A stretch of DNA of 46,002 nt from a virus, in the IMG/VR virus record IMGVR_UViG_3300035698_003457, positions 1 to 46,002 of that record. One strand, 5' to 3'. Shown one piece after another: positions 128-15,060 of this stretch. The position numbers were made by a program, and so were the translations under genes. Numbering within the stretch: position 1 is the first letter of the stretch; each line of letters opens with the position of its first letter. The notes under the pieces were generated by a model. That model was not told where the DNA came from and did no database searches. It saw nothing but the letters and a program-made list of their open reading frames with translations.

Positions 128-895
128 ATAGAATGGTGCGTTCTTGTCTTTTGTTGATGTATTAGTTGATTGATAATGTATATCGACATAGTGAATAAAC
201 GGATCGGTTACTGCAACTGAGTCTGTTAGGTTATTAGCATCCATCTCCATCGTTACAAGAATTACTCCATCAATTTCAATATCGTCCGAATCAAACTGCT
301 CTCCAGCCACAGGTGTTGTCGCTGTCAACTGGACTTCTGTTATATGGTGCTGGTACTGTGCTGTTCCGGCGTCACCGCTAGTAAACGTCTTAGTAATCGG
401 CGTGCTTGTGAATGCGTCAGTGTCATATCCACTAGCGTAAGCAGCCGTGTATTTAAAATCAAGTGTCCCGCCAGTGTTAGTCGTGCTTATTTGACTCCAA
501 TGAACATGAATAAATAAGTCTGTTGCTGGAACGTAATCATGTGGAATATGGAAGTCGTAATATTCTAAATCTCCATTGCCAAATCTAAACTGGAAAATTG
601 CACCGTTATATGCCTCAAAGGACGGCTTTGTCGCACCCGTATTCCTTGTTGACACCTCTCCAAGCAAGTCCCTAAACCCGAATGTTGGAACGTCAAGGTC
701 TACTTTTATACCCTTACCGGATGTCTTAGGAAGAACAAGGTTGCATCTAACTAAAGTATCTAGCGTGCCTACATCCACAAACAAGCCCTGATACAACCGC
801 CACAAGTCCCTGTAATGGTCGCGCAACTGTTCCTCTACGGCTCGGTTGTCTTTAAGCTCATGTAGAACTTCACGACTGATTAGGCTATCTGTCAT
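122..895 (-). CDS. virion protein, probable tail fibre or tail accessory protein
   Basis: 257 residues. The first 45 residues are helical and charged; the rest is rich in beta-strand, Thr, Gly and Asp, as in phage fibre and appendage proteins. It is the last gene of the tail block, overlapping the start of the nozzle gene's stop region by 11 bp (885-895), and is followed after 11 bp by the small gene that spans the contig join. No enzymatic motif is visible. The assignment as a structural protein rests on composition and position, not on a recognised domain. Confidence 0.6.
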   Translation of the reverse strand: MTDSLISREVLHELKDNRAVEEQLRDHYRDLWRLYQGLFVDVGTLDTLVRCNLVLPKTSGKGIKVDLDVPTFGFRDLLGEVSTRNTGATKPSFEAYNGAIFQFRFGNGDLEYYDFHIPHDYVPATDLFIHVHWSQISTTNTGGTLDFKYTAAYASGYDTDAFTSTPITKTFTSGDAGTAQYQHHITEVQLTATTPVAGEQFDSDDIEIDGVILVTMEMDANNLTDSVAVTDPFIHYVDIHYQSTNTSTKDKNAPFYT

Positions 896-3746
896 CTTGT
901 ACCTGTGGCTCTAGTATCTTGTATTCGCTTATCTGGAAATTACTTCCATTAATATTGTCAAACTCGTATTGGATTCTCTTTGAGGATATGTTGTGGTAGG
1001 ATGTGTATTCTTTCCATTGAGATGTTAGGTCAAATGCGGCCCCTACTAGCCATCCGTCATCAGGCGCAGCGTTGCTTTCTGTTCCATAACCAAGATTATA
1101 AATTGTCGCTTTTTCAATATTAGACAGTAATTCATTGTAAGCTCTGGCGTCATCTATCTGTCCGTCAAATGTAGCAACTCCGCTAGCAGCATTACCTATT
1201 ATGAGGCTAGACCCAGAATCAGACGTAGATGTTCCGGTAGGTGTAGTGAATGCCGTAACAACAACAGTAGCTCCATTTACACATACTACTGGGATATTAG
1301 ATGCCAAATCGCTGTCGTATGATATAATAATACTATTGTACTGACCGGCAGGAACGGAAAAAGTCCACAATCCGTTTGTACCTGAAAATATTTTAGAGAA
1401 TCTCATGCTGGCGGTAGTGCCACTCATAGATGTGTGCCAATTTGTTTTATCCAAGACTCTGCCAAAGTTAGTTTCACCTGCTGTTGCAGCGTTACACCAA
1501 AAAGCTACGCTACCACCCCCGTCAAATATATCATCTAATTCAATAGCAGAACCTACGTCTATCTTTGAATCAGCACCATCGAAGTCACCAGCTAGGTTTA
1601 GCTTACCAGAGGTATACGTCATTGATGTATCAGAGCCATCATTGCCATTCCCTGAGTTATCTATAGACGAACCATTCATTTTCCAATGCCCTACAATGCT
1701 CGTAATTGGACCTGTCGAAGTGGCGTCAAAGTTGTCAATCCTTGGCCTTACTTTTACAATACCACTGGTAGGGTCGTCTGGATTAGCCCTTGCTACTATA
1801 GCGATTCCAACCCATCTCTTAAATAAGTCTGGTTCGTCCCAATCTTCTATACTAGTCGGATGGCGTGATATAATATCAGACCCGCCATAATCCGTATTGG
1901 TTGCATCAAATTCATACACAAACCCCGAATTATCGCCTATCATCAACCTTGCCTGCTTAAGGACTTCGTTGATCTCCTCTCTATAAGTCTGGCCAGACGG
2001 GTCAAACAAAGTGCCTGTAGTGTCACTGCCTGCGGCATTCAACTCTTCTACCGTAGTCCCTGAATTTACTGCGGCAGAGTAGGTTGACCCGTCTCTTGGC
2101 TCTAAGTGGACAGTAATAGACCAATCACCAGCGTTGTTCACGGAACAAACGTCAGACAATGAATAATAGTGTGTGCCATGTGGCATACCTACTGTATCAG
2201 AACTTTCGTCAATTCTTAGAATCTTATCTGAGAATGTAGACCAATCGGGGTATACTGAAGTAGAACCAGCAAGGAGCAATGTGTTATCTGAGGTAGAAGA
2301 ATAATCAAACTTAAGTCCTGCCGCTGCCTTACTGAAATCAAAGTCAGTAAAGTCAAGGTCGTCGCCTGCATCGGCTATCACAGAGAAGTCTATCTTATTG
2401 GTTGTTAAATCACCCTCTAAGACATCACCGTACCGTATGGTAGTATCACCAGGGTCGCCGTCTGATATATCCGATGTATATTTGCTTAGGGTGTTTAGTT
2501 CTGCATTATATGAATCTCCAGTAACGAATGACTGAGAACCTACTAACGACAATGCACTAATCCCAGTAGTCCCAGAATATTTATCTTTGAAGTCTCTGAC
2601 CTGCCATGCGCCTGTTCGTATATCAAGTCCATAAGCCATCGTGGAGTAATCTTCTCCGTCAAGAACAATATAAATCCATAGCCGTCTATTGTTCTCGTCA
2701 AAACTCATCCACGACCGCACAGAGAACTCCGAGCTTAACTGCTCTTGAAGGAGTGGGTGAATCTTATCTCCGAGCCGTTCCTTTACAGTACCACCGAAAT
2801 AGGCATAGACATTAAAATCAGAACCTACAAAGTAATGCACGTTGTTCTTAACGTACAGGAGATGTGGGGCAAGTAATCCCAAATCAGGTACCATCGGGCG
2901 TGGGTCGAATACCGTAGTTCCACCGACGTAGTTTAAGTCCCATATCCCTCTTGACTGGTAGATAGCATGAGTTCCTGCAATCGGAGAAGCCCACATATTA
3001 GCACCACCAGTGTCGATCAATGTCACCGAGCCAGAACCAGTCCCTTCAAATGTTTGTGGTCTATTTGGCCTTGCCCATCTAATCTGCTGATTATTCTGAG
3101 TCCATAGATTTGTAGACGAAGAGAAGTTTTGAGGACTTAATAGGAGGATTCTTGATCTGAAATCAGATACATGATGCGCTCTGTGTGTTGTTCCGTCATG
3201 GTAATCGTCACCGCCAAGTAAATCTGCATAGTCAGTTTCAAACCTACCTGCCCATCTCTGTATATTATTAAGTCCACCATTACACACTATTGAGTGAAAG
3301 TATGCCTGTGCCTGTGAGGTATTGTCATTAAGATGAATCCTATCTGCATCTGACGCTCCATACCCGTTTGCTGTCTCTGTGAAACTTACAGGGTTTGGGT
3401 ACTGAGAAGACATTGTAAGGCCAGTTTGGGTTATGTCATTCCAATCCGCATTCACACGATCATGTTCAAATATCTTCTTTCCGGTAACTGCGAGCATGTG
3501 ATTATAGCCGTCAAGTTCTCTGAACGGGGAAATGCCTAGCACACTAGTATTAACCGACTCACTACCAAACTCTACATCAAGCCCAGTATCTATATCTACA
3601 GCCACAAAACCCTCTGGGGTTGTCATAAGGCCGTTTTCGTATAGGATATTCTGCGTACGCCGACTAGCCTCATTTTGAGTTATGAGCGTATCTGGCAGAT
3701 TCGCATTTATTCCTTGCGTTGGACTTTGTATTAGTTTTGATGGCAT
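885..3746 (-). CDS. tail nozzle/tubular-type protein with inserted LamG domain
   Basis: 953 residues, the largest gene in the window. The N-terminal portion (polar start with asparagine- and threonine-rich strands, then a beta-propeller-like body) resembles podoviral tail nozzle (T7 gp12/P22 gp10-like) proteins. Residues about 686-889 look like a LamG/concanavalin-A-like jelly roll: an N-terminal HWKMNGSS strand, a DNSGNGNDG turn, and a C-terminal FDGQIDDARAYN strand. After it the nozzle-like sequence resumes (WLVGAAFDLTSQWKEY) for about 64 residues. The layout suggests a glycan-binding domain inserted near the C-terminus. It follows the fibre gene after 1 bp and overlaps the next gene. Confidence 0.6.
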   Translation of the reverse strand: MPSKLIQSPTQGINANLPDTLITQNEASRRTQNILYENGLMTTPEGFVAVDIDTGLDVEFGSESVNTSVLGISPFRELDGYNHMLAVTGKKIFEHDRVNADWNDITQTGLTMSSQYPNPVSFTETANGYGASDADRIHLNDNTSQAQAYFHSIVCNGGLNNIQRWAGRFETDYADLLGGDDYHDGTTHRAHHVSDFRSRILLLSPQNFSSSTNLWTQNNQQIRWARPNRPQTFEGTGSGSVTLIDTGGANMWASPIAGTHAIYQSRGIWDLNYVGGTTVFDPRPMVPDLGLLAPHLLYVKNNVHYFVGSDFNVYAYFGGTVKERLGDKIHPLLQEQLSSEFSVRSWMSFDENNRRLWIYIVLDGEDYSTMAYGLDIRTGAWQVRDFKDKYSGTTGISALSLVGSQSFVTGDSYNAELNTLSKYTSDISDGDPGDTTIRYGDVLEGDLTTNKIDFSVIADAGDDLDFTDFDFSKAAAGLKFDYSSTSDNTLLLAGSTSVYPDWSTFSDKILRIDESSDTVGMPHGTHYYSLSDVCSVNNAGDWSITVHLEPRDGSTYSAAVNSGTTVEELNAAGSDTTGTLFDPSGQTYREEINEVLKQARLMIGDNSGFVYEFDATNTDYGGSDIISRHPTSIEDWDEPDLFKRWVGIAIVARANPDDPTSGIVKVRPRIDNFDATSTGPITSIVGHWKMNGSSIDNSGNGNDGSDTSMTYTSGKLNLAGDFDGADSKIDVGSAIELDDIFDGGGSVAFWCNAATAGETNFGRVLDKTNWHTSMSGTTASMRFSKIFSGTNGLWTFSVPAGQYNSIIISYDSDLASNIPVVCVNGATVVVTAFTTPTGTSTSDSGSSLIIGNAASGVATFDGQIDDARAYNELLSNIEKATIYNLGYGTESNAAPDDGWLVGAAFDLTSQWKEYTSYHNISSKRIQYEFDNINGSNFQISEYKILEPQVQDDR

Positions 3747-3747
3747 A

Positions 3748-4695
3748 TTATCTTCCTATTGCTACCCAGTTGTAGCCTTCCCAAGTTCCCGCTGCGCTGT
3801 CTGGAGTAAATCCTGTCTTCGAGCTAGTTATATCTCCAACCGAATCTCCCGCTGCGTCGTCAGCCTTAAATCCAGTCAGACTCAAGGTGACTAAATCGTT
3901 TGGAAATGCAACAGTAAATACTATCGGAGTCTTATCTGATGGATCGTCAGTCGATTTGCCCATCTTCATTATAAAGCCATTGCCAAGCGTAGTTGATTGA
4001 GTATCTGCCGCTGCTGTATAACTTGTAGGATCATAAAACAAGCCTATTCCTTCAGTCCCGCCCCATGCCGAGGCGGTTCCATCAACCTTTAACACTCCTG
4101 TTATAGTGACATCTCCTACAAATCCTGCATCGGAGAAGTCTGCGCTTTGCTCTACGAATAAAACAGAACAGTCTAATGCTCCTGATATATCAGCCGAGCC
4201 ATCTACGACAAGAACAGAACAGTCTATCGCTCCATCAATTGAAAGCTGGCCAGTCATATCTACGGAAGCATCAAACTCATGCGCCCCAGCCCATGTAACG
4301 TCACCGCCTGCCCATTGCTTGTCTGGGTGCATTAGCAATAATGTAAAATCGGTTGCCGCTGTTGATTCTGCATCAGCAGTAGAACACCATAGCCTCGCGT
4401 CCTGTGAGCCATCATAACCCCATACCATACCTCTGCCTTGGAACGTGCCATCAGATATGATTGGCGCAGTAATGTCGCCACCTGCGTCCGTTATCTCCAT
4501 GCCGAGTATCCCCGCACCTCCAGGCATGTGAATCCCACCTACTGTATTGTCGGCAAATGTGGTATGTCCACTATTAAGCCTCTTTCTTACTCCTATCTTA
4601 AAGTCGTTAAATTCCTGATAATCAAGGCCGTGAGGCTGGTCAACATCTAATGTTTCGTTCCAGCTTGCGCCGTCTCCACTGCTATGTGCTGTCAT
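3748..4695 (-). CDS. tail fibre-like protein
   Basis: 315 residues. Near residues 140-210 there are repeated short beta segments with the pattern D-G-S-A-D-I/F-S, typical of trimeric fibre shafts. The C-terminus (LSLTGFKADD ... EGYNWVAIGR) resembles the gp53-like C-terminal domain of phage tail fibres, which ends in a W-x-A-I-G motif. It overlaps the cytidylyltransferase stop by 4 bp (4692-4695), so the sugar cassette is directly coupled to this fibre gene. It is likely a receptor-binding or appendage protein and a candidate target or partner of the sugar made by the cassette (inference). Confidence 0.65.
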   Translation of the reverse strand: MTAHSSGDGASWNETLDVDQPHGLDYQEFNDFKIGVRKRLNSGHTTFADNTVGGIHMPGGAGILGMEITDAGGDITAPIISDGTFQGRGMVWGYDGSQDARLWCSTADAESTAATDFTLLLMHPDKQWAGGDVTWAGAHEFDASVDMTGQLSIDGAIDCSVLVVDGSADISGALDCSVLFVEQSADFSDAGFVGDVTITGVLKVDGTASAWGGTEGIGLFYDPTSYTAAADTQSTTLGNGFIMKMGKSTDDPSDKTPIVFTVAFPNDLVTLSLTGFKADDAAGDSVGDITSSKTGFTPDSAAGTWEGYNWVAIGR

Positions 4696-5240
4696 TTTAG
4701 TATCTCACAAACATCTAAGTAATCCTGTAATGTGTCAATTGACTTCCCTTCTTCTTCGGGAGAAGGAATCTTTAATTTATCTGCATTCTTTCGCATATTA
4801 CCTGTAACATGTTCCTTGTCTTTACCGTACCGAATAAGGGTTTCTAAGCTAAAAACCTCAACGTCAAACCCATCGCCACCGTCTTCATCTGAATTATACA
4901 CAAACTCTTTACCGGATATTCTATACTGATATATTGCCTCGTCAATAATATGAGGCTTTATCAACGGACAATCTGACGTTATACGAACTATTACATTAAC
5001 ATTGAACTTCTTAGCCGCATTCACATACCTCTGATAAACATCGTCTTCTGAGCCAATATACGTGTATCCATGCTTTAAATCCTTATCTGGAGTAGCAACA
5101 ATAACTTTTTGTGCCAGCTTGCTATGCTCACAGTTATGAATCACTTCATCAAGCACGCATCTTCCGGTAGGCAACATCAACATTACCTTAGCCGGAAGTC
5201 TTGTACTGCCCAATCTAGCTTGTATTATTATACCTACGAT
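4692..5240 (-). CDS. SpsF/NeuA-type cytidylyltransferase (CMP-sugar activation)
   Basis: A nucleotidyltransferase of the acylneuraminate cytidylyltransferase / SpsF type, which in this pathway would join CMP to the nonulosonic acid. The signature Q-A-R-x-G-S-T-R-L-P (residues 7-16 of the form used here) is followed by the RITSDCPLI segment (family: R-x-T-x-D-x-P-L) near residue 90. The first ATG/GTG/TTG in frame is a TTG at 5213, which would cut off IIIQAR, part of the conserved N-terminal strand. The open frame extends to ATC at 5240, seven bases after a GAGGG sequence, giving a normal N-terminus. I therefore prefer a non-AUG start there; a -1 shift from the upstream gene is the alternative. 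About 182 residues, shorter than the usual 230-250. Confidence 0.75.
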   Translation of the reverse strand: MVGIIIQARLGSTRLPAKVMLMLPTGRCVLDEVIHNCEHSKLAQKVIVATPDKDLKHGYTYIGSEDDVYQRYVNAAKKFNVNVIVRITSDCPLIKPHIIDEAIYQYRISGKEFVYNSDEDGGDGFDVEVFSLETLIRYGKDKEHVTGNMRKNADKLKIPSPEEEGKSIDTLQDYLDVCEILK

Positions 5241-6514
5241 CTAAACACCCTCGCACCGCAGTGTGGACATTGTAGATGTTCTGGTAATTCTACTGGTTTG
5301 TCTATGAACATCTTCTTAACCTTATCGAAATACGACTGATTTAATATAAAGAACCTTTCCTTACATATCCCACACAGCGTCGGTGTAAACAAATTCTTTA
5401 GGTCTTTTACTATATATGGCAACGAGTAGTCTCTGTGTGCCTTTGGCCAACATAGCTTAAACTCGCCTGCAACCTTCTCTATCTCGTCTGCGGCTCTTTG
5501 GGTAGCTTTGCCGTCCATCGCCCCATATCGGCCATCCTCAAGCTCTTTAAGCACCTCTACGCTTGCGTTTGAGCCTTCTCGTATTGCAGACAGTATCTGG
5601 TTTGTATCATTCAGGTACGGAGATACTTTTGATAATGGTGAGCTTGGTGTCTGGAACCAATTTGTCGTAAACTTCCTATTAACGTCACCATACTGAAAAG
5701 CTGGGATATTGAGCAAATGAGCCTCAATAGCCATTGTCGAACCTGAATGGATAAGAGCGTCACAGTTGCATAATAGTTCTGTTGCTGTAGTCTCTATGTC
5801 TATTGGAACGCCTAAAGCCTTGTAATCTGTAATATCAATGCCTGGATGCGGCCTTAAGATGATATTAAACTCGTTTTCCTGCTTAAGAACATTGATTAGC
5901 TTGATATACTCTTGCTTGCCAGTATCTTCCTGTGAATAGGACTTAATCTCTTCTATTTGCAGGTCTGGTGCGCTATCAGCAAATCCCCATGATGAACCTA
6001 TTAGCAAGTTTGGTTTGTCAGGATTGAGTTTGTACTTCTCATTGAACGCTTCCCGCTTCTTAAGCCCTGCAAGGTCGGTATGGTAAATGTCCACCGCAAA
6101 CGACCCGCATGGAACTGATGGGAATCCACATCCTCTGCGGTTAAGTATCTCGGCCTCATCTTTACCCCAAACAAGCTCTACATCGACTAAATATGGGTAT
6201 AAGCCTATGATATTCCTTTGCTTATCTATCTGATCCATAGCGTTAAAGTCCTGCCATGAACATGATGCTTCGGTATGGCGAGTCACTACTCCAATACCCC
6301 AACCCTTGCAAGTCTCTACGAAGTCTCTTGAATATGGGTTTCTTACGGGTGGTACTATTACCACGTTAGGCTGTACCTTTAGGACTGTATCACGTCCGTT
6401 TCTGAGACAAGGCTCTATAAACACCTCATGCCCTCGCTTACGGAGTTCGTCGCCTAACTGCTGGTCTACGAGTTTATCACGCTGTGGTGATGCTGTTAAG
6501 ATTACTATTTTCAT
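5234..6514 (-). CDS. surface-carbohydrate biosynthesis protein, GT-B-like, with C-terminal zinc ribbon
   Basis: 426 residues. N-terminal Rossmann-like domain (MKIVILTASPQRD, then a GHEVFIEP strand); second domain with ILRPHPGID and HSGSTMAIEAHLLNIPAF, typical of GT-B folds such as CDP-glycerol transferases and surface polysaccharide proteins. The last ~45 residues add a two-knuckle zinc ribbon (C-G-I-C and C-P-H-C). It could transfer the nonulosonic acid or act as a UDP-sugar hydrolase in place of PseG, which is otherwise missing from the cassette. Overlaps the acyltransferase gene by 4 bp. Confidence 0.65.
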   Translation of the reverse strand: MKIVILTASPQRDKLVDQQLGDELRKRGHEVFIEPCLRNGRDTVLKVQPNVVIVPPVRNPYSRDFVETCKGWGIGVVTRHTEASCSWQDFNAMDQIDKQRNIIGLYPYLVDVELVWGKDEAEILNRRGCGFPSVPCGSFAVDIYHTDLAGLKKREAFNEKYKLNPDKPNLLIGSSWGFADSAPDLQIEEIKSYSQEDTGKQEYIKLINVLKQENEFNIILRPHPGIDITDYKALGVPIDIETTATELLCNCDALIHSGSTMAIEAHLLNIPAFQYGDVNRKFTTNWFQTPSSPLSKVSPYLNDTNQILSAIREGSNASVEVLKELEDGRYGAMDGKATQRAADEIEKVAGEFKLCWPKAHRDYSLPYIVKDLKNLFTPTLCGICKERFFILNQSYFDKVKKMFIDKPVELPEHLQCPHCGARVFRS

Positions 6515-7008
6515 GTTGGTTTCCTTTGTACTAGTCGTTTCTCTAAGTGACCACCAAAGCCACTCTTGAATTTTGTTATGTTCTTTTCCTTTTCTGTTTC
6601 TTCAAGCTTTTCGCCTAATTCAAACCTTTTTAGTCCTTCTGACTTGCAAAACTCTACAGCACTCCATATCACAGCATGAGAATTAACACCCTTAAAGGAT
6701 GCGGCACAGGCATAATAACAACAATACTCGTTCTTGTAGAAGAGGGCTGCTGAGATCAATGTTCCCTGATTGTAAAGCTCGACAACAAATGCCTCACCGC
6801 AGTCTATCATTTCCTGCTGAATACCCCATGTTCTGTCTGAACGGGTCTTTCTACCTGCAACTTTAAGGTGTAACTCTTGAAGTCCGCAGATAGACGGAGA
6901 GAAGATAATGCCGTCTGTCTTGTTTATCAGACTCTTGTAGGACTTCCTTACGTCCTGCTTGAGATTGAACTTGGTCAGATCAATGACGATAAAAGTCTTA
7001 CCGTCCAT
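6511..7008 (-). CDS. FemAB-like/GNAT-fold acyltransferase
   Basis: 165 residues from the ATG at 7008. The open frame continues to 7146, but that would overlap the preceding GNAT gene by 98 bp and adds an uncharacteristic N-terminus. Visible features are KSYKSLIN, LHLKVAGRKTRSDRTW, a YYACAAS strand, then a lysine/glycine-rich FKSGFGG near the C-terminus. This pattern is seen in small FemAB-related proteins of sialic-acid-like sugar clusters, which probably transfer an acyl or amino-acyl group to the sugar. The acceptor is unknown. Confidence 0.6.
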   Translation of the reverse strand: MDGKTFIVIDLTKFNLKQDVRKSYKSLINKTDGIIFSPSICGLQELHLKVAGRKTRSDRTWGIQQEMIDCGEAFVVELYNQGTLISAALFYKNEYCCYYACAASFKGVNSHAVIWSAVEFCKSEGLKRFELGEKLEETEKEKNITKFKSGFGGHLEKRLVQRKPT

Positions 7009-7048
7009 GCTTAGCCGTTCTTCACCATATTCTTTGCAGTATTCTTTA

Positions 7049-7528
7049 TCAAGCTTTGTATTCAGACACGTCAATCGAGAACCACAAACTATCGTGGTAC
7101 TCCCCGTTCCAGAATTTTCGACTTGGTAGCACTGTTCTGTATCCATTGTATTTCTCTAATATTCTAAACCAGAAGTCTATTCCAGTATTACACTTATAAC
7201 ATTCGCCTGTTACTGTTTTAAGGTTCATCTTCTTGAAAGCTTCGTCAAGTAGCATATCAACGCAGTCAGAGCCTATTCCGTCTTTCCTATTGTCTGGATT
7301 GACTATCAATGATATTTCTGCTGTTCTGTTTTCCCATATCAAATTTGTTAATCCACCAAAAGCGATTAAGTTGCTCTCGTCGTAAAACGAGAAATACTTA
7401 TGATTCCTGTCACGTAAAAAATCAACTGAGTCATTGCTGAATCCGGCAGTTCTAAGCGTTTCTCTAGCTTCGTCTCGCCATGTATTGACTTCTGCTATTA
7501 CATCTGCTCTCGCACCAGTCATTATCAT
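7049..7528 (-). CDS. GNAT N-acetyltransferase (PseH-like position)
   Basis: 159 residues with a GNAT fold: strand EISLIVNPDN followed by the acetyl-CoA pyrophosphate loop R81-x-x-G84-x-G86 and a helix. In nonulosonic acid synthesis such an enzyme N-acetylates the 4-amino sugar made by the aminotransferase, and the gene lies directly after that one with an ATGA overlap (7525-7528). The exact substrate cannot be read from sequence. Confidence 0.75.
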   Translation of the reverse strand: MIMTGARADVIAEVNTWRDEARETLRTAGFSNDSVDFLRDRNHKYFSFYDESNLIAFGGLTNLIWENRTAEISLIVNPDNRKDGIGSDCVDMLLDEAFKKMNLKTVTGECYKCNTGIDFWFRILEKYNGYRTVLPSRKFWNGEYHDSLWFSIDVSEYKA

Positions 7529-8745
7529 TTCTGTAACCTCAGCGTCTCTTTCGCTACGTCGCCTTCCAATAGGTCTTCAAGATTATCTTTATGCTTTCTT
7601 AGCATCCGTATTGCATGTCTGATGGCGTCTATTGCCTCATCTATGTCGTGTATCCCATGAGATGCTGTTATGAACTGTGCATGGCCAAACATTACGCCTT
7701 TCTTAAGGCATTCCTGCCAAAAGACTGACTTCATAAGAGGAGAGGGGAACTTAAAGTAAGTTCGGCATGGATAACCAATACATTCTGCATTAATTCCTTC
7801 GTTTTGAGAGATTGTGTTAAATGCCTGCTTCAATGAAGCTCCCCTGTCCCAGATATGTTTAATCACGCCCCTTTCTTCGATAACCTTTATCGTTGCAAGC
7901 GATGCGGTAATTCCAACCAAATCGCCACCGAAAGATGAAGACACAAAACAATCGCCTTCAAGCACCTTCATAACATCTTTACGGCCACCTACAGCCGCAA
8001 TAGGAAATCCGTTAGCCATCGCCTTGCTTAAACACATAAGGTCTGGCTGGACGTTAAACATGTTTGCCGCACACCACTTTTGAGTCCTGAAACCTGTTAC
8101 TACTTCGTCAAATATCAATAATGCCTTATTCTTCTGGCAGAGCCGTTTTACTTCTACTAAGAAATTATTCTTTGGCTCTTCGTAAACATAAGGTTCCATT
8201 ATTACTGCCGCTACATTCTTATGCTTTTTAAAGCGTTCTTCAAGCGACTTTATATCGTTAAACTCAAATGGATAAACCTTAGATTTTGCACACCCTTCAT
8301 TTTTTGGGGTTGTCTGATTGTACCATTCGTGCCATCCATGATACCCACAACAGAGGATTGTTTCCTTCTTGGTAAAAGCTCGCGCAATCTTAACCGCCGC
8401 ACTTGTCGTCTCACTGCCTGTCTTTAGGAATCTTACCATCTGTACCGGGAACAGTTCTATTAGCTTCTCAGCAAGCTCTGTCTCTAGTTCGTGTGGCATT
8501 GGGAAGTTTATTCCTTTGCCAACTTGTTCCTTGACAGCCCTGTTCACTGTTTCGTCGGCATGACCTAGTATATTAACGCCTAGAGAGCCTGTGAAGTCCG
8601 TGTACTCCTTACCGTCAGCATTTACATGGCAACCATACCCCTCGTCGATATATGTGGGATATACTCCGTCTACATACTTACTTGGCATCTTAGATAAGGT
8701 CTGTACGCCGTCTGGTATTACTTTTTTTGTTCTTGATAAATTCAT
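7525..8745 (-). CDS. class III (glutamate-1-semialdehyde type) PLP aminotransferase
   Basis: 406 residues, full family length. PLP-binding features: KTGSETTSAAVKIAR around 108-122, GYHGW 134-138, FDEVVTGFR 212-220, and the Schiff-base lysine K241 in LSKAMANG. Related to HemL, but a haem role is unlikely here: similar GSA-type aminotransferases occur next to NeuB- and SpsF-type genes in surface-sugar clusters, where they probably aminate a keto-sugar. It stands in for the DegT-family PseC of the classic pathway. Overlaps the Cys-rich gene upstream and the GNAT downstream by 4 bp each. Confidence 0.85.
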   Translation of the reverse strand: MNLSRTKKVIPDGVQTLSKMPSKYVDGVYPTYIDEGYGCHVNADGKEYTDFTGSLGVNILGHADETVNRAVKEQVGKGINFPMPHELETELAEKLIELFPVQMVRFLKTGSETTSAAVKIARAFTKKETILCCGYHGWHEWYNQTTPKNEGCAKSKVYPFEFNDIKSLEERFKKHKNVAAVIMEPYVYEEPKNNFLVEVKRLCQKNKALLIFDEVVTGFRTQKWCAANMFNVQPDLMCLSKAMANGFPIAAVGGRKDVMKVLEGDCFVSSSFGGDLVGITASLATIKVIEERGVIKHIWDRGASLKQAFNTISQNEGINAECIGYPCRTYFKFPSPLMKSVFWQECLKKGVMFGHAQFITASHGIHDIDEAIDAIRHAIRMLRKHKDNLEDLLEGDVAKETLRLQK

Positions 8746-8927
8746 TTTAGTTTCCTTTCTTCAAATAGTACGCATCCAAATTCTGGACCAAAACATAATA
8801 TAGAATCTGAACCGCATCCTTCGTCGCCAAACATATCGTCGCTTCTCCCATTTAGAGCCTTGCAATAACCTCTCTTGTCTGCTATGTAATAATCGCAATC
8901 CCAATGTTCACAGTCTTTACATTTCAT
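8742..8927 (-). CDS. small Cys-rich protein
   Basis: 61 residues starting C-K-D-C-E-H-W-D-C with further cysteines at the middle and end, probably a zinc-binding mini-protein like those in the early region. Its ribosome-binding leader is one of two identical 23-bp copies (see repeat at 8923). Overlaps the aminotransferase start by 4 bp. Function unknown. Confidence 0.6.
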   Translation of the reverse strand: MKCKDCEHWDCDYYIADKRGYCKALNGRSDDMFGDEGCGSDSILCFGPEFGCVLFEERKLK

Positions 8928-8945
8928 AAGTCTTTCCTTTCAAAT
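8923..8945. repeat. 23-bp direct repeat, copy 1
   Basis: Identical to 9211-9233. In the minus orientation it is a Shine-Dalgarno leader ending in ATGAA (GAAAGGAAAGACTT plus start). The two copies flank the 88-residue coiled-coil gene, so that gene looks like a duplication-bounded insert. Confidence 0.9.
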
Positions 8946-8948
8946 AGT

Positions 8949-9215
8949 CTATTCTAATCTTCCGGCCATAGCATGTAGCTCTGCGTCACTGAATGTTGGT
9001 AATAGTCCAAATAGATTTAATAACCCAGATTTTGGACGTACTGTGCTAAGATGTTTCATTTTTGAATATTCTTCTCGGTTTTTTCTTTCATTAGCCTCCA
9101 TCTCTTCCTGTTTTAATCTTTCTTTCTTCAGCTCTTTAGCTTTCAATCTTCTTATACTTTTAAGATTTTTAAGCGTAATCATTGCGATTTCGTTCTCGAT
9201 TTCCGATGTCTTCAT
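8949..9215 (-). CDS. small lysine/glutamate-rich coiled-coil protein
   Basis: 88 residues, highly charged helix (residues about 8-55) with heptad-like spacing and a short hydrophobic C-terminal tail (LLNLFGLLPTF). Bounded by the 23-bp direct repeats, it interrupts the sugar cassette between the reductase-like gene and the aminotransferase. No known function; probably a recent insertion. Confidence 0.55.
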   Translation of the reverse strand: MKTSEIENEIAMITLKNLKSIRRLKAKELKKERLKQEEMEANERKNREEYSKMKHLSTVRPKSGLLNLFGLLPTFSDAELHAMAGRLE

Positions 9216-9233
9216 AAGTCTTTCCTTTCAAAT
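9211..9233. repeat. 23-bp direct repeat, copy 2
   Basis: Exact copy of 8923-8945, covering the leader and start of the 88-residue gene. Its spacing from copy 1 (288 bp) matches one gene unit. Confidence 0.9.
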
Positions 9234-9811
9234 TTACGGGTGTCCACTTCTTCGTTGTGAGTGAACTTTTCCATTTTTACCAGGTGAGCAACATTCTCTC
9301 TCAACTGGTCGGCGGAGTCAACGCCTATTATTACTTTGTCTATTCTTGGGTTCATTAGTACAAAATCTATACATTCCTGCGGGCTAAAATACTTTAATGC
9401 CTTGCCTTTGCAGAAAATGGAGCGGGCGATAAATGTATTTGTATTGGAGAATTTAAAGTGCCTATTCATTATGGAATATGGAAACTCTACAACCAATCCC
9501 TCATAAATACACGACTCTGGTATATAGGTAGAAAGCCCATCGTGGAAGTCAACATCAAAATCTACGCTTGTATGCGACAAAAGAATGTCACCGTAGTTAG
9601 TCGGGATATTTTCATTTGATTTCACAATCTTATTAAAATCCCTACTTATATCCTGAGTTCCATAAGCCGTAGCTACGTCCAGCCACTCTATCCCAACCTC
9701 TTTCATGTATTCCATGATGAGCTGTTGTTCTTTGTCAGAGACTTTATGGCCGTTGTACTCTTTGGTCCAGTTGGCAGTCCCAACGACTAACCTGTTCAGT
9801 ATATTTCCCAT
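9212..9811 (-). CDS. shortened aldo/keto-reductase-like protein
   Basis: 199 residues, well below the usual 270-330. It keeps the AKR N-terminus (RLVVGTANW), the D-x-A-x-x-Y-G motif (DVATAYG) with its catalytic-type Asp and Tyr, and an LLSHTS strand with a His in the expected place, and ends with PRIDKVIIGVDS, like the AKR C-terminal strand. The middle of the TIM barrel is shortened. AKR-family proteins accompany SpsF- and NeuB-type genes in bacterial sugar clusters. Whether it still reduces a substrate is uncertain. Confidence 0.65.
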   Translation of the reverse strand: MGNILNRLVVGTANWTKEYNGHKVSDKEQQLIMEYMKEVGIEWLDVATAYGTQDISRDFNKIVKSNENIPTNYGDILLSHTSVDFDVDFHDGLSTYIPESCIYEGLVVEFPYSIMNRHFKFSNTNTFIARSIFCKGKALKYFSPQECIDFVLMNPRIDKVIIGVDSADQLRENVAHLVKMEKFTHNEEVDTRKFERKDL

Positions 9812-10374
9812 TACGCTATTTTCCTTGTTTCTAATTTATCGCTTTTTTGTAAATTATCAGTCGCCCACAATGGCTGTAAGTTTTCAAGTCGCCAACACAT
9901 CTTATACTCTACGTCATCAATAGTATTATATTCAAAGAATGATACTGGAATTTTATGGTCAACATGCCATTCGCCGTAGTTGTCCCATGTCATGCCGTCT
10001 ATAAATAAAGACTCAAGGTGACTCATTAAAGCCTTAGCGGTATAACCTAGCATGTCTTCCCATTTACGGCCTTGCTTACCTTCGCTTAGAAGTCTACTGA
10101 CATGCCTACCGATATTCTGAGAGAGACGATACTTAGGGTTCTGTCGCATTTTTGCCCTTTTTTCTCTTTCATATTTCCTAGCTCTTTCTAGGTCTTTATT
10201 TCTCCATTTAGTATAACTGCCCGTAAACTTATCTTTGTTTTCTTCGTAGTAGTCTTTTCGTTGAGCCTTATATCTCTCACTATTGCTTTCTCGCCACTTC
10301 TTGGCATTTGCCAATCTCTTTTCTTTGTTCCGCCAATAGTAAGCTTTCTGTGCTTCTTTGTTATACATATTCAC
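9811..10374 (-). CDS. HNH homing-type endonuclease
   Basis: 187 residues: a long Lys/Arg/Glu-rich, probably DNA-binding N-terminal half, then WHVDHKIPVS and LENLQPLWATDNLQKSDK, the HNH metal-site pattern found in phage free-standing homing endonucleases. It lies between the dehydratase and reductase-like genes, with a 3-bp gap and a 1-bp overlap, and has no obvious pathway role; a selfish insertion is likely. Confidence 0.85.
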   Translation of the reverse strand: MNMYNKEAQKAYYWRNKEKRLANAKKWRESNSERYKAQRKDYYEENKDKFTGSYTKWRNKDLERARKYEREKRAKMRQNPKYRLSQNIGRHVSRLLSEGKQGRKWEDMLGYTAKALMSHLESLFIDGMTWDNYGEWHVDHKIPVSFFEYNTIDDVEYKMCWRLENLQPLWATDNLQKSDKLETRKIA

Positions 10375-10377
10375 CGC

Positions 10378-11295
10378 CTATAACGAGTCGATTAAGCATT
10401 TCATCTCCTCTCTGGTATATCGAACAGCATTCTCAGATGTTGTTTCGACATTCATAGCCATAGCTTTCATTGTATGAGGATTTTCTTTACTTAAGTCTAC
10501 GTAAATAGCTTCTTGCCCTTTTTGATTTATCGTCTCATGTATTTTCTCTCCCGGCCTTATTCCTGTTATTTTAACTTGGCATTCTGGCCATATAGTAAAT
10601 GCCAATTCTTCCATAGACATAGACTTCATTAGCGGGAGATAAACGCCTTTCCAGTCATACGTAATAGCTTGTAAGACTAACTCTACAGCATCACTCAAGG
10701 TTATCCAGAACCTCGTCATTTTAGGATCAGTGATCGGGAGGGTCGTTGCACCATCATTTTTAAGTTTGAGGAAGTGAGGAATAACGGACCCTCTCGATCC
10801 TATGACGTTCCCATATCTCACTGAAGAGAACTGGGTTATCGCGTATGAATTAGCGGCCTGCCAAAGTTTCTCGGCGGCCATCTTTGTAGCACCATATAGG
10901 TTTATAGGGTTTACAGCCTTATCAGTAGAGATGAATATAGCCTTTTTAACGCCACAGTCTATACATGCCTCGATTACGTTTTGAGTGCCGTAGATATTAG
11001 TCTTGACGGCCTCCGTAGGGTTGTATTCCAGTGTTGGAACTTGCTTGAGTGCTGCTGCGTGGATAACTATATCAACTCCACGCAGAGCGAGCTTCAGGCG
11101 TTCTTTATCCCTTACGTCACCTATAAAGTAACGTATGTTATCGTAATCGTGAGTCTTTTGCATTTCGGACTGCTTATACTCATCCCTACTGAATACTATA
11201 ACCTTATTCGGTATGAACTTTTGAAAGATCGTTTCTACTAACTTCTTACCGAGCGAGCCTGTCGCTCCGGTTATTAACACTGTCTGATTGTTCAT
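10378..11295 (-). CDS. pseB-like: UDP-GlcNAc 4,6-dehydratase, PseB/FlaA1 type
   Basis: 305 residues, an SDR enzyme that converts UDP-GlcNAc into a 4-keto-6-deoxy sugar, first step of pseudaminic-type sugars. NAD-binding GATGSLG at 10-16, the family signature HAAALKQVPxxEYNP (about 79-93), D125-K126 of STDKAVNP, and Y134-x-x-x-K138. This Asp-Lys-Tyr arrangement is that of FlaA1/PseB rather than of epimerases. Its first 50 bp overlap the end of the synthase gene. Slightly shorter than the usual ~330. Confidence 0.9.
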   Translation of the reverse strand: MNNQTVLITGATGSLGKKLVETIFQKFIPNKVIVFSRDEYKQSEMQKTHDYDNIRYFIGDVRDKERLKLALRGVDIVIHAAALKQVPTLEYNPTEAVKTNIYGTQNVIEACIDCGVKKAIFISTDKAVNPINLYGATKMAAEKLWQAANSYAITQFSSVRYGNVIGSRGSVIPHFLKLKNDGATTLPITDPKMTRFWITLSDAVELVLQAITYDWKGVYLPLMKSMSMEELAFTIWPECQVKITGIRPGEKIHETINQKGQEAIYVDLSKENPHTMKAMAMNVETTSENAVRYTREEMKCLIDSL

Positions 11296-12232
11296 CTTTA
11301 TTTCCTTTAATTAAGTCGCCAATATTATAGTCTTTAGTCGCTGTCATTTCTGGTTTCATTGTTCCCGTAATCGTACTTCTTAATGATTTCATCTTCCATT
11401 CAGTACATTCGCCCTTCTTAATCTGCTCCGTAGCAACCATTGAGCGTCTGTAAGCCTTAGTAGTCTCGTACGAAACCTTGCCGATACACTTTTTAGCATT
11501 AGTCACTACTTTAACTATACCACAAAATTCGTCCGGTGTCAAGCTGAAAGCACCATCTATACCATCTTTTTCCAGACAAATATGCTTTTCTATTACATCT
11601 GCACCAAGAGATGTAGCTACAACCGCCGCGAATAGCCCTGAAGTATGATCAGAGAACCCTATCTTGCATCCATACCTAACCTGCATATCAGTGATTGTAG
11701 ATAGATTCAATTCCTCAAATGTAGCAGGATAACTTGATGTGCATTTCAATAGCGTTATATCGTTGTGGTATTTCTCTATCACTGATATTGCATCTCGTAT
11801 CTCTTGCTCGGACGCAGTACCTGTCGATATTATAATTGGCTTTTGAGTCTTTGCAACCGATTCAATAAGGTCTAAGTCGTTAATCTCGAATGAAGCTATC
11901 TTGTACCTTGGCATATTGAGCAATTCAGCCCTTTTAAGCGATTCAGAGTCGAATACTGATGGAAATAACTCTATGCCGAACTGAGAGGCTACTGTTTGGA
12001 GTATTGGTATCCACTCAAAAGGCATGGCTGTTTCTTTATATAGATCGTATAGCTTCCGATTCCACGGACTACCTGCCTTGAACTGCGGTAAGTCTAAATC
12101 CATCGTCATAGCTTCAGGAGTGAACATCTGGATTTTAACAGCGTCTGCACCGGCATTAGCGGCATATACCACCAATTCCTTAGCAATGTCAAGACTACCG
12201 TTATGATTTCCAGATATCTCGGCTATAATCAT
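11246..12232 (-). CDS. NeuB/PseI-family nonulosonic acid synthase
   Basis: 328 residues. Condenses phosphoenolpyruvate with a six-carbon amino sugar to give a sialic-acid-like nine-carbon sugar. N-terminal EISGNHNGS, AGADAVKIQ, then KIASFEI, PIIISTG, LLKCTSSYP, GFSDHTSG and EKHICLEK (metal and substrate residues of the TIM barrel) are all present. The C-terminal antifreeze-like (SAF) domain appears truncated, ending soon after YNIGDLI. Overlaps the head-tail adaptor gene by 4 bp, so it is co-translated with virion genes. The product could be pseudaminic, legionaminic or another acid; motifs alone do not decide. Confidence 0.9.
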   Translation of the reverse strand: MIIAEISGNHNGSLDIAKELVVYAANAGADAVKIQMFTPEAMTMDLDLPQFKAGSPWNRKLYDLYKETAMPFEWIPILQTVASQFGIELFPSVFDSESLKRAELLNMPRYKIASFEINDLDLIESVAKTQKPIIISTGTASEQEIRDAISVIEKYHNDITLLKCTSSYPATFEELNLSTITDMQVRYGCKIGFSDHTSGLFAAVVATSLGADVIEKHICLEKDGIDGAFSLTPDEFCGIVKVVTNAKKCIGKVSYETTKAYRRSMVATEQIKKGECTEWKMKSLRSTITGTMKPEMTATKDYNIGDLIKGNKDEQSDSVNNRSDRLAR

Positions 12233-12981
12233 CTATAACTCTCTCCATAAGATGCTATATCGTCACTAAACAGATTACCATCCCAAGAATGAAGTTCGTC
12301 TTCGCTCCTGCGGTACTTCTCAACCCATCCAAAGTCCTGCCCTGCCAGCGGGTCTGGGTTACTGAACTTCTTCATTCCCAACTGATATTTAACCTCATCA
12401 CCTATCGCCTGCCATGCTTGCGCTACGGCATATATAATAAGTCCTTTATCGCTCCTGTCAAGCTCACTAACGGACGATGACTCTGTTGTGAAGTCTACAG
12501 GCCATCTATCGCCTAATACCATTAGAGGAATGCCTGTTGTGTCGGATAGTGGGAGTATCTCTATGGTATCACTGCGTCTTGTATATCTAAATGGCTTTCC
12601 TGTTCCATAATCTGAACTGGTAGGGTCTGATAACTTATCCCATTCGTCTATGTGTGTATATCTTAATCTCGCCGAATCAGTACCGTTTTTATAGTGAATG
12701 CCAAATATTCTATTTATTACACTTACAGTAGTGTCCGTCATTGCAACCGCAGTTTCGTCACCTACTGTTAGATCGACTAAATCCCATCTAAGCTGTGCAA
12801 CAGTACACCAACTCTCAATCTTAACATCAAGCGACTTCATGCCGGGAAGTAGGCGAGAAATCTCCCGCTGTCCTTCGTTGAGCCATCGCGCAACCCTAGT
12901 AGCGTCAATGAGTTCCGTATCGTTATTACGTCCTACTAATGACTGAACTTCGTCAGTTAATTGTGCGCCTGTTAGAGCCAT
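12229..12981 (-). CDS. head-tail adaptor/connector protein
   Basis: 250 residues, beginning with the N-terminal pattern L-T-x-E-V-Q-x-L-V-G-R-x-N followed by a helix containing WLNEGQREI, as in podoviral adaptor (gp4/gp11-like) proteins. The body is beta-rich with ALTG...VAMTD strands; a C-terminal segment with WVEKYRRSEDELHSW is helical. It follows the capsid genes and precedes the tail genes, the expected place for an adaptor. Overlaps the nonulosonate synthase start. Confidence 0.65.
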   Translation of the reverse strand: MALTGAQLTDEVQSLVGRNNDTELIDATRVARWLNEGQREISRLLPGMKSLDVKIESWCTVAQLRWDLVDLTVGDETAVAMTDTTVSVINRIFGIHYKNGTDSARLRYTHIDEWDKLSDPTSSDYGTGKPFRYTRRSDTIEILPLSDTTGIPLMVLGDRWPVDFTTESSSVSELDRSDKGLIIYAVAQAWQAIGDEVKYQLGMKKFSNPDPLAGQDFGWVEKYRRSEDELHSWDGNLFSDDIASYGESYR

Positions 12982-12997
12982 ATTTACCTCAAAGTAT

Positions 12998-13019
12998 GGG
13001 GCGCGCCGAAACGCGCCCC
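12998..13019. other. GC-rich hairpin between head and adaptor genes
   Basis: Perfect 8-bp inverted repeat GGGGCGCG/CGCGCCCC around a 6-base loop. On the leftward transcript no T-run follows, so it is not a classical terminator there. It may be a stability or processing element separating highly expressed head genes from tail genes. Confidence 0.7.
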
Positions 13020-13026
13020 TTTAAAG

Positions 13027-13296
13027 TTACCAACCAAAAGCTACATAGGAAATAATTATGCCACTTGTGGTTTCATTGGTTCCGCCAGTTAGATACCCAT
13101 CAGACACCTCAACCAACTCTGTCAGCGAGCAACTTCCGTCGCCGCTTTCAGAAATGAATGAGATCGCATGAGTAAGAGTAGTTGGAATACTAATGTCAGC
13201 TCCTGAACCTTGGGTCCATTCACCTGTTTCCACTCTTAGCCCACCCGGAATCGTACCAGCCCGCTGAAAGACAGTGCTATTATCACCAAAACTCAT
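13027..13296 (-). CDS. small head protein, probable decoration
   Basis: 89 residues, beta-rich, rich in Gly, Ser and Thr. Adjacent to the 231-residue and major capsid genes with good ribosome-binding sequences, so it is probably a decoration or head-stabilising protein (inference from place and size). Confidence 0.45.
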   Translation of the reverse strand: MSFGDNSTVFQRAGTIPGGLRVETGEWTQGSGADISIPTTLTHAISFISESGDGSCSLTELVEVSDGYLTGGTNETTSGIIISYVAFGW

Positions 13297-13310
13297 AATA
13301 TACTCCTTTC

Positions 13311-14006
13311 TTATTCAGCCGACATGTCGCCGAAGCCATGTGCAATGCTTGCAGTTGTATCGGAAATGGCAATTACTGCCCTTGCGGTATCAATAGCAAT
13401 CATCATCGGACCGGGTTCAGTCAGCGTTGCAGTTGTATCAGCACCTAGTTTACTATCAGCAGATCCACGGAACAATGAAACATCATTGACCGGACAAACT
13501 CCGCCAACCCAGAACCAACCAAGACCGTAACCATAACCTCTATCGGCGTTATCGCCAGAAAGAGAACTGTCGCCAGCAATGCTGGTCGAGCAAGGAAGTG
13601 CCATTGGCGCACCCTTCGTCCCATCCCATGCGTCTGATGCAAACGCGCGTGCAAGCATGTAATATGGAGGTGTGCTACCCTCTCCAATTACTACTTCGCG
13701 GGTTGTGTCTGCATGCGCACAGAACGGAGGTCCATCACTATAGTCACCGCTAATATCTACTGCCGAATAGTCATGGTACGCCAGATATGCCATTGTGTAC
13801 ATACCGGGAGCAGCAGACGCATCTGAATAGATAGTTCGCTTTTGACCAAGTGGAATCGGAGGTTGGTCAACGTATTTTGTAATATCAGATGTATTACAGT
13901 TTTCCGTTGTGTTATCCCACCCATCAGTAGGGATACCAAGATTCTGATTTCCTTCGCCTGGGAAACCGTCAGTTAGAACTATGTGTGTTAATTTCAAATT
14001 AGCCAT
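13311..14006 (-). CDS. head/virion protein of unknown class
   Basis: 231 residues, glycine- and aspartate-rich with beta strands; no recognisable enzyme motif. It directly follows the major capsid gene (16 bp gap), with a clear AGGAGG-type site upstream, so it is likely a virion component such as a decoration or vertex protein. Confidence 0.5.
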   Translation of the reverse strand: MANLKLTHIVLTDGFPGEGNQNLGIPTDGWDNTTENCNTSDITKYVDQPPIPLGQKRTIYSDASAAPGMYTMAYLAYHDYSAVDISGDYSDGPPFCAHADTTREVVIGEGSTPPYYMLARAFASDAWDGTKGAPMALPCSTSIAGDSSLSGDNADRGYGYGLGWFWVGGVCPVNDVSLFRGSADSKLGADTTATLTEPGPMMIAIDTARAVIAISDTTASIAHGFGDMSAE

Positions 14007-14022
14007 TTAATGGCCTCCTTTC

Positions 14023-15060
14023 TTAAGATACGTTAGATAGCCAAATAGAACTATTGGGCTTCCAACAAACAAGATTACCCTTCAACAGGATTCTGGCAAG
14101 CCAGAAATCAAACCCGTTACTGTTTTCGCCCTGCCACTTAAAGTCCGTCATCTTAAAGTTACGGGCTATATGGACACGAAGCTCAAAATAGTTCATGTTC
14201 AAAATAGCCAGCCACGTCTTCGTATTAGACGACCTTTGTAGGTATGGGTCACTAACGATTTCGTGTCCGTCAAGTTCCATTTTATTGAAACCCTGCGTCA
14301 CCATATCGCCACTCGGAGCGTTGTAAATCAATTTCGATTCCGTCTCTGCTCTGAGTTTATTAAAGAGAGTAGGACACATAAACGCGGATAAGTCCATTGG
14401 CTTTTCCATGTAATGTGTTACGTCTGTTTCGCTAATCCATTTACGGAAGTTAGCTACTGTTAGATTGTAGGCCGTATCCTGATTCGAGCTTGAGATATTA
14501 ATCGTCAAGTCTGCGGGATCAGCACCCTGCCACCAATCGTTAGTACCTGCACTAATATCTCTCGCAACACCGCCATAGGTGTTGTCGCTGTCAAGAGCCG
14601 ATATGATACTCTGGAATGTTTTTCCGCCATCTGTCGCAGGGGTATCGCTACCCTTGTTCCACATGACTCCATTCAAGTATCGTCTCATATCCTTCTGGCC
14701 CTTCTTAGTGAGGTGTTCTGCCAGATTTAATAGCTGTATTTCGCTATCCGAGGTCAAGATGTTTTCCGTCTGTTCGTCTGCGTCGTACCGTAAAGGCATT
14801 TGTGCATACTTCCAGTCGAACGAAGGCTTCTCAAGAGTAGTCTTCTTCTGGTCGGTCAACGATTCATTAACTGTGTATTCCTGAACGGTATCATCTATCG
14901 TGTCGGTGTCTACAAGCTTCTGAATAGTCAAACCACCATCAAAGGTCACTTGGTTCTGCCTTTGCAGTCGTTCAATGAACGGAATACCATACATGACCTG
15001 ATCAACAAGGGTTCTCTCGAAGAGTTCCCTTGTTGCTTTGGTAAGGTCTGCTGTACTCAT
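14023..15060 (-). CDS. major capsid protein (HK97-fold type)
   Basis: 345 residues. Helical N-terminal region followed by alternating helices and strands, consistent with an HK97 fold; features include a charged E-loop-like segment (about 50-90) and the C-terminal beta/P-domain. Size, position directly after the scaffold gene and before head accessory genes support the call. No experimental signature is visible in sequence. Confidence 0.8.
   Translation of the reverse strand: MSTADLTKATRELFERTLVDQVMYGIPFIERLQRQNQVTFDGGLTIQKLVDTDTIDDTVQEYTVNESLTDQKKTTLEKPSFDWKYAQMPLRYDADEQTENILTSDSEIQLLNLAEHLTKKGQKDMRRYLNGVMWNKGSDTPATDGGKTFQSIISALDSDNTYGGVARDISAGTNDWWQGADPADLTINISSSNQDTAYNLTVANFRKWISETDVTHYMEKPMDLSAFMCPTLFNKLRAETESKLIYNAPSGDMVTQGFNKMELDGHEIVSDPYLQRSSNTKTWLAILNMNYFELRVHIARNFKMTDFKWQGENSNGFDFWLARILLKGNLVCWKPNSSIWLSNVS

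Follow-up and report, generated by a model that had tools for sequence, protein, structure and literature searches.

A probable nonulosonate-type sugar pathway and a zinc-ribbon glycosyltransferase encoded within the virion gene run of an uncultured phage lineage

The DNA analysed here (the window) is the complete 46,002-base viral contig IMGVR_UViG_3300035698_003457 of the IMG/VR database. At nt 4692–12232 it carries a run of genes related to the synthesis of nonulosonates (sialic acid-like sugars), and this cassette, like the two genes that border it, lies on the minus strand. Reading downstream, the order is an adaptor-like neck gene, a NeuB/PseI-type synthase, a PseB-type dehydratase, an HNH/endonuclease VII-like gene, a short aldo/keto reductase, two small open reading frames (ORFs), a class III aminotransferase, a GNAT acetyltransferase, a FemAB-like protein, a GT-B glycosyltransferase with a zinc ribbon, an SpsF-type cytidylyltransferase, a tail fibre gene and a stopper-like gene. 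An earlier note, made by a model from the letters of the window, had named a set of such families and placed it between head-tail adaptor and tail fibre genes. All the families it named are present at that position, but its list was incomplete, as the reductase, the HNH gene and the two small ORFs had been missed. The upstream border, the head-tail adaptor (neck) gene (nt 12229–12981), gave no match in a PHROG search and is named from its position after MCP-o13311-o13027 (MCP, major capsid protein); it has orthologues in all contigs of the lineage described below. The downstream border is the tail fibre gene (nt 3748–4695; phrog_1396), which has a conserved N-terminus and a variable tip (alignment A16). 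The 4-bp overlaps said to join the genes occur at 6 of the 12 joints from adaptor to fibre, while the remaining joints vary between an overlap of 98 bases and a gap of 21 bases. Since promoter-like and terminator-like sites were no more numerous than in shuffled sequence, it is gene order by itself that points to late expression of the cassette.

The synthase (nt 11246–12232; PF03102, 240 bits) has a shortened SAF-like tail and fits the PseI model best (TIGR03586, 327 bits, cut-off 340; NeuB, 224 bits), and its best PDB match is a pseudaminic acid synthase (8h2c). Residues K33, K111, S194, H196, E215 and H217 are invariant in 14 members of the lineage, the exception among the catalytic residues being E5, which is D in some members. 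The PseB/FlaA1-type dehydratase (nt 10378–11295) scored 380 bits against TIGR03589 (cut-off 408), has FlaA1 as its best PDB match (2gn4, 289 bits), and retains T124, D125, K126, Y134 and K138 in all of 13 members. Judged by its sequence it qualifies as PseB, an inverting UDP-N-acetylglucosamine (UDP-GlcNAc) 4,6-dehydratase, though its score lies somewhat below the cut-off.

A single aminotransferase was found in the run (nt 7525–8745; PF00202, 181 bits); it is of class III (HemL/GSA type), with 301 bits against NF004856 (cut-off 486) and with K241 and D213 invariant in the lineage. Family profile searches of the run detected no DegT-type PseC, in agreement with the proposal of the earlier note that a GSA-type enzyme takes the place of PseC. 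The GNAT N-acetyltransferase (nt 7049–7528; PF00583, 35 bits) is the proposed equivalent of PseH, and reached 26 bits against the PseH profile TIGR03585 (cut-off 93). No match to the PseG profile TIGR03590 was found in the window, and none above the cut-off in 13 other pathway-carrying phage records; one match across the 14 records, 34 residues at 10 bits in the close relative G002, is not credible. The lack of a clear PseG, which had been remarked upon earlier, is thus supported.

The SpsF-type CMP-sugar cytidylyltransferase (CMP, cytidine monophosphate; nt 4692–5240; PF02348, 52 bits) is shortened. The best PDB match of its profile (A13) is the cytidylyltransferase 6oew, and R9, R14, K18, D90 and D126 are invariant in the lineage while Q7 and D169 vary. 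At 20 bits against the PseF model (cut-off 205.7) it is not classed as PseF, yet presumably carries out the same reaction. Its frame has no ATG and begins with a probable ATC start at nt 5240, directly after a TAG; an ORF list of the window has only a TTG at nt 5213 as the start. Where the window has this TAG, G002 has CAG, which puts an ATG within the G002 transferase gene into the reading frame of SpsF (window nt 5204–5270). The difference is silent in the transferase frame.

The GT-B glycosyltransferase (nt 5234–6514) ends in a C-terminal zinc ribbon (CGIC...CPHC). Its profile scores lie below the cut-offs, at 89 bits for TIGR04396 (cut-off 125) and 88 bits for NF046086 (cut-off 200), while a homologue in the more distant contig L214 reaches 124.5 bits against the former. 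A predicted structure, which the earlier note had proposed as a check, supports the GT-B assignment: the AlphaFold model built from 15 sequences (pLDDT 79; first model, pLDDT 68) has a GT-B fold, and the nearest solved structures are TagF/TarL, which use CDP (cytidine diphosphate) donors, and UDP-sugar 2-epimerases, at a TM-score of about 0.5. The HP and S-T motifs are invariant in the lineage. Each of the 13 complete phage copies checked carries the CxxC...CPxC ribbon, which none of 20 bacterial family members has, a distribution consistent with a phage-specific partner. Eight of these 20 bacterial genes have PseB or NeuB (PseI) within about 1.5 kb. A search of 30 bacterial genomes carrying the aminotransferase with the transferase profile (A8) gave no match, and had no positive control.

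The set, whole or in part, is found in 19 IMG/VR contigs of this uncultured lineage, the window and 18 others. They were gathered by scans for the transferase, the aminotransferase and the capsid protein; the pattern-based scans were not exhaustive, and some contigs are near copies from paired samples, so not all are independent. Single-sequence scans for NeuB in viral and genome contigs gave no match, and alignments were required. Complete copies from NeuB to the fibre gene occur in 12 of the 19, always in one order and in one slot, and the others are cut by contig ends. G002, whose terminase is 87% identical, carries the set in the matching slot without the reductase and the HNH gene. The capsid scan did not select for the set. 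Nine of its contigs extend beyond the adaptor gene and have a capsid protein with 57% identity or more, and in every one of them NeuB follows the adaptor gene (L004 contributes just the first codons of NeuB). Between the window and G002, ratios of non-synonymous to synonymous substitution (dN/dS) are 0.08–0.20 for cassette genes and 0.03–0.19 for virion genes, and dS is similar in both, though partly saturated, which argues that the cassette has been inherited together with the virion genes. Few of the catalytic residues of the synthase, dehydratase, aminotransferase and cytidylyltransferase vary over 13–14 members, and the transferase motifs are the same in all. Two possibilities that the earlier note had named as fatal to its proposal were therefore rejected. 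An assembly chimera is ruled out by the recurrence of the gene order in many contigs and by purifying selection, and the main enzymes are not pseudogenes with inactive sites, given their dN/dS and their invariant catalytic residues.

More distant relatives suggest that the transferase and the pathway are separable. In L214 (49.8 kb; capsid protein 44% identical) a homologous transferase, about 33% identical and with its zinc ribbon kept, lies directly before the adaptor gene. Profile searches of this record, which lacked a positive control and may have met an incomplete sequence, found no synthase or cytidylyltransferase. Contig L213 has the start of the corresponding transferase gene and ends inside it. 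In L215 (capsid protein 31% identical) adaptor, fibre and stopper genes follow one another with nothing in between, and the sequences of both L214 and L215 span the neck-fibre junction. Because L214 and L213 carry the transferase near the neck gene, with no pathway found in L214 and an empty junction in L215, the transferase may be the older part and the sugar pathway a later gain.

Of 37 bacterial loci with complete flanks, drawn from the best matches of the aminotransferase, 32 carry both SpsF and NeuB, and six of these 32 also PseB. In a tree with 80 bacterial sequences, picked as best matches and not as a full sample, the window, G002, L092, L089 and L096 form one clade (100/99) separate from all of them. 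A flagellin locus of Myxococcota (L022) has a class III aminotransferase, SpsF, NeuB, PseB and PseG beside flagellin, and the adjacent glycosyltransferase bears the NF046086 domain of the transferase family. No PseC was seen on reading through the genes of L022 and of a Chloroflexota locus (L023), in both of which the class III aminotransferase accompanies PseB, PseG and PseI; locus L008, unlike L022, has a DegT-type aminotransferase as well. In view of these bacterial loci the class III enzyme may simply substitute for PseC and yield an ordinary pseudaminate skeleton, and the suggestion that the sugar is non-standard is not established.

Compared with the bacterial CMP-pseudaminic acid pathway (PseB-PseC-PseH-PseG-PseI-PseF), known from flagellin glycosylation, the phage set shares a PseB/FlaA1-type dehydratase, a PseI-type synthase, a GNAT enzyme and a cytidylyltransferase, with intact catalytic residues. 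It differs in having a class III aminotransferase rather than a DegT-type PseC and an SpsF-type rather than a PseF-type cytidylyltransferase, in lacking PseG, and in being encoded in a virion operon. L022 and L023 share with the phage set the combination of this unusual aminotransferase branch with PseB and PseI, and in L022 the likeness extends to the NF046086-domain glycosyltransferase beside flagellin. These bacterial loci differ in having PseG and, in several cases (L008, L022), a fusion of SpsF and aminotransferase, and their aminotransferases are at most 45% identical to the phage protein.

On balance, the phage probably encodes a CMP-pseudaminate-like pathway and its own transferase, which most likely modifies a virion protein in the cytoplasm. 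We infer the following reactions, with their product, acceptor and late timing, from gene content and order. PseB would convert UDP-GlcNAc to a 4-keto-6-deoxy sugar, the class III aminotransferase would add an amino group at C4, and the GNAT enzyme would acetylate the aminated sugar. UDP (uridine diphosphate) would be removed by a host or other enzyme standing in for PseG, the PseI-type synthase would condense the sugar with phosphoenolpyruvate, and SpsF would make the CMP sugar. Expressed late, with the virion genes, the zinc-ribbon protein would then transfer the activated sugar to a fibre, neck or capsid protein before or during assembly. Side groups may be trimmed by the FemAB-like protein and the aldo/keto reductase and, in relatives, by PIG-L and formyltransferase-like proteins.

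The earlier note had offered either virion glycosylation or late remodelling of host surface sugars. That nonulosonate enzymes lie within a late structural operon has held, and of its two options the former is the better supported. The latter is the main rival, though a doubtful one: nonulosonate would be added to lipid-linked precursors of O-antigen or capsule, which would keep sister phages from re-adsorbing to dying cells or their debris. Many bacterial nonulosonate clusters do serve surface polysaccharides, the TIGR04396 and NF046086 families are named for surface carbohydrates, the predicted transferase fold resembles TagF/TarL and capsule polymerases, and the cassette adjoins a fibre gene with a variable tip. 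However, the cassette sits in the virion gene run and not in an early region, and the zinc ribbon is phage-specific. Family profile searches among the cassette genes gave no match to flippase, polymerase or oligosaccharyltransferase families, that is, to envelope export, although host machinery could serve. Virion glycosylation is favoured chiefly because a homologous transferase lies among the virion genes of L214, where no pathway was found, so that the transferase can serve a phage lacking one, and because the aminotransferase branch, in the closest form seen with PseB, PseG and PseI, occurs in a bacterial flagellin locus.

Several points weigh against virion glycosylation. PseG is missing, and the PseB, PseI, PseH and transferase-family scores are all below curated cut-offs. 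The transferase model aligns to solved structures only at the TM-score given above, and the zinc ribbon could merely stabilise the protein. The transferase-only state is represented by just two contigs, the long L214 and the truncated L213. Acceptor and glycan are inferred, and an enzyme working in the cytoplasm might just as well use a lipid-linked glycan of the host as its acceptor.

A second alternative, that the GT-B protein is a UDP-sugar hydrolase replacing PseG and that a host transferase then uses the CMP-nonulosonate, is unlikely. PseG is likewise of GT-B type, it is the enzyme missing here, and the model fits UDP-sugar 2-epimerases and TagF/TarL to a similar degree. Against this, L214 keeps the GT-B protein where neither synthase nor cytidylyltransferase was found and where a pathway hydrolase would be useless, and none of the 14 records gave a credible match to the PseG profile. 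That the cassette is a decaying passenger (moron) of bacterial origin with no role in infection is very improbable, for although its G+C content is lower (0.409 against 0.435 in the rest of the window), an HNH gene has inserted into the reductase, the reductase, SpsF and SAF domain are shortened and SpsF lacks an ATG, such a reading is already strongly contradicted by the low dN/dS, by catalytic residues invariant across deeply diverged members, and by a slot kept in all informative contigs with capsid proteins at least 57% identical.

Virion glycosylation can be extended to an evolutionary scenario, plausible but just short of probable, in which a phage-specific zinc-ribbon transferase, ancestral in the neck module, adds a pseudaminate-like sugar to virion proteins in the cytoplasm, and one lineage later added the pathway beside the fibre gene, giving a charged coat independent of the host sugar supply. 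Phage-encoded sugar genes are usually taken as accessory genes acquired by chance. Here the nonulosonate pathway has a constant place in the virion operon throughout a deep phage lineage, and at least one further lineage has comparable sets among its structural genes. If the sugar is carried on the particle, phages would coat themselves with charged sugars in the way bacteria add sugar to flagellin, and this would matter for adsorption, for clearance from serum and for evading recognition by the host. The role of phage-encoded surface-sugar genes, long hard to state, thereby becomes testable.

Glycans are reported to have been demonstrated on capsid and tail proteins of mycobacteriophages, which encode glycosyltransferases (Freeman et al. 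2023, as cited in PMC12619734 and PMC11256854). Both systems have transferases of the phage's own that are presumed to act on virion proteins; the glycans were shown there, while here there are genes alone, but the whole sugar pathway is phage-encoded too. The nonulosonate transferase GtfS of Tannerella forsythia, which uses CMP-nonulosonate and has an HP motif (PMC6388019), is similar in size; its acceptor is an O-glycan sugar and not a virion protein.

Related gene sets were found in other phages. In a second, unrelated lineage (L089, L153, L178), where some gene names rest on reading translations, SpsF, PseB and an aminotransferase immediately precede neck, stopper and fibre-like genes, and L102 has a set of SpsF, aminotransferase and NeuB between its terminase and portal genes. 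A different set lies near replication genes in L094 (nt 8156–14871), with PseB, a PseC-like fragment, NeuB, the N-acetyl sugar amidotransferase WbuX, WbuZ and SpsF; its gene content suggests that the product is likely an acetamidino-modified nonulosonate. A similar PseB-NeuB-SpsF layout is found in L095, L097, L101, L103 and L104. Among 50,697 phage records there was no match to the transferase or to the capsid protein, and only three had a distant NeuB. The open-access literature yielded no description of a phage-encoded nonulosonate pathway, which is weak evidence of novelty.

The FemAB/GNAT-fold-like protein (nt 6511–7146; TIGR04421, 71 bits, cut-off 250) is encoded in every complete cassette of the lineage, and a transfer of N-acyl or aminoacyl groups onto the sugar is possible. 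Formyltransferase-like and PIG-L deacetylase-like genes occur in some relatives and in the second lineage (L096, nt 13872–14970; L141, nt 11902–12970; L142; L153, nt 3201–4351), which suggests, from gene content, variable N-acyl groups, N-formyl or other. The short aldo/keto reductase-like gene (nt 9212–9811; PF00248, 29 bits) is syntenic in most relatives and absent from L007 and L142. In the window its 5' end has been interrupted (nt 9811–10420) by the HNH/endonuclease VII-like gene (nt 9811–10374; phrog_1035, phrog_7091), and relatives have no HNH gene at that place. The start of the reductase is duplicated around the insertion, with a remnant, MLNRLVIGG, where PseB ends and a recoded version, MGNILNRLVVG, after the HNH gene. 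Different HNH genes lie in or next to the cassettes of L092 and L141.

Neither the small ORF at nt 8949–9215 nor the small cysteine-rich ORF at nt 8742–8927 gave a match in family profile searches. Small cysteine-rich proteins are also encoded inside or flanking the cassettes of relatives (L096, nt 9350–9965; L141, nt 6142–6594; L092, nt 17159–17578). The stopper-like protein downstream of the fibre gene (window nt 885–3746) is 953 residues long, against 709 in G002, and carries a concanavalin A-like lectin domain (Laminin_G_3) at residues 742–875.

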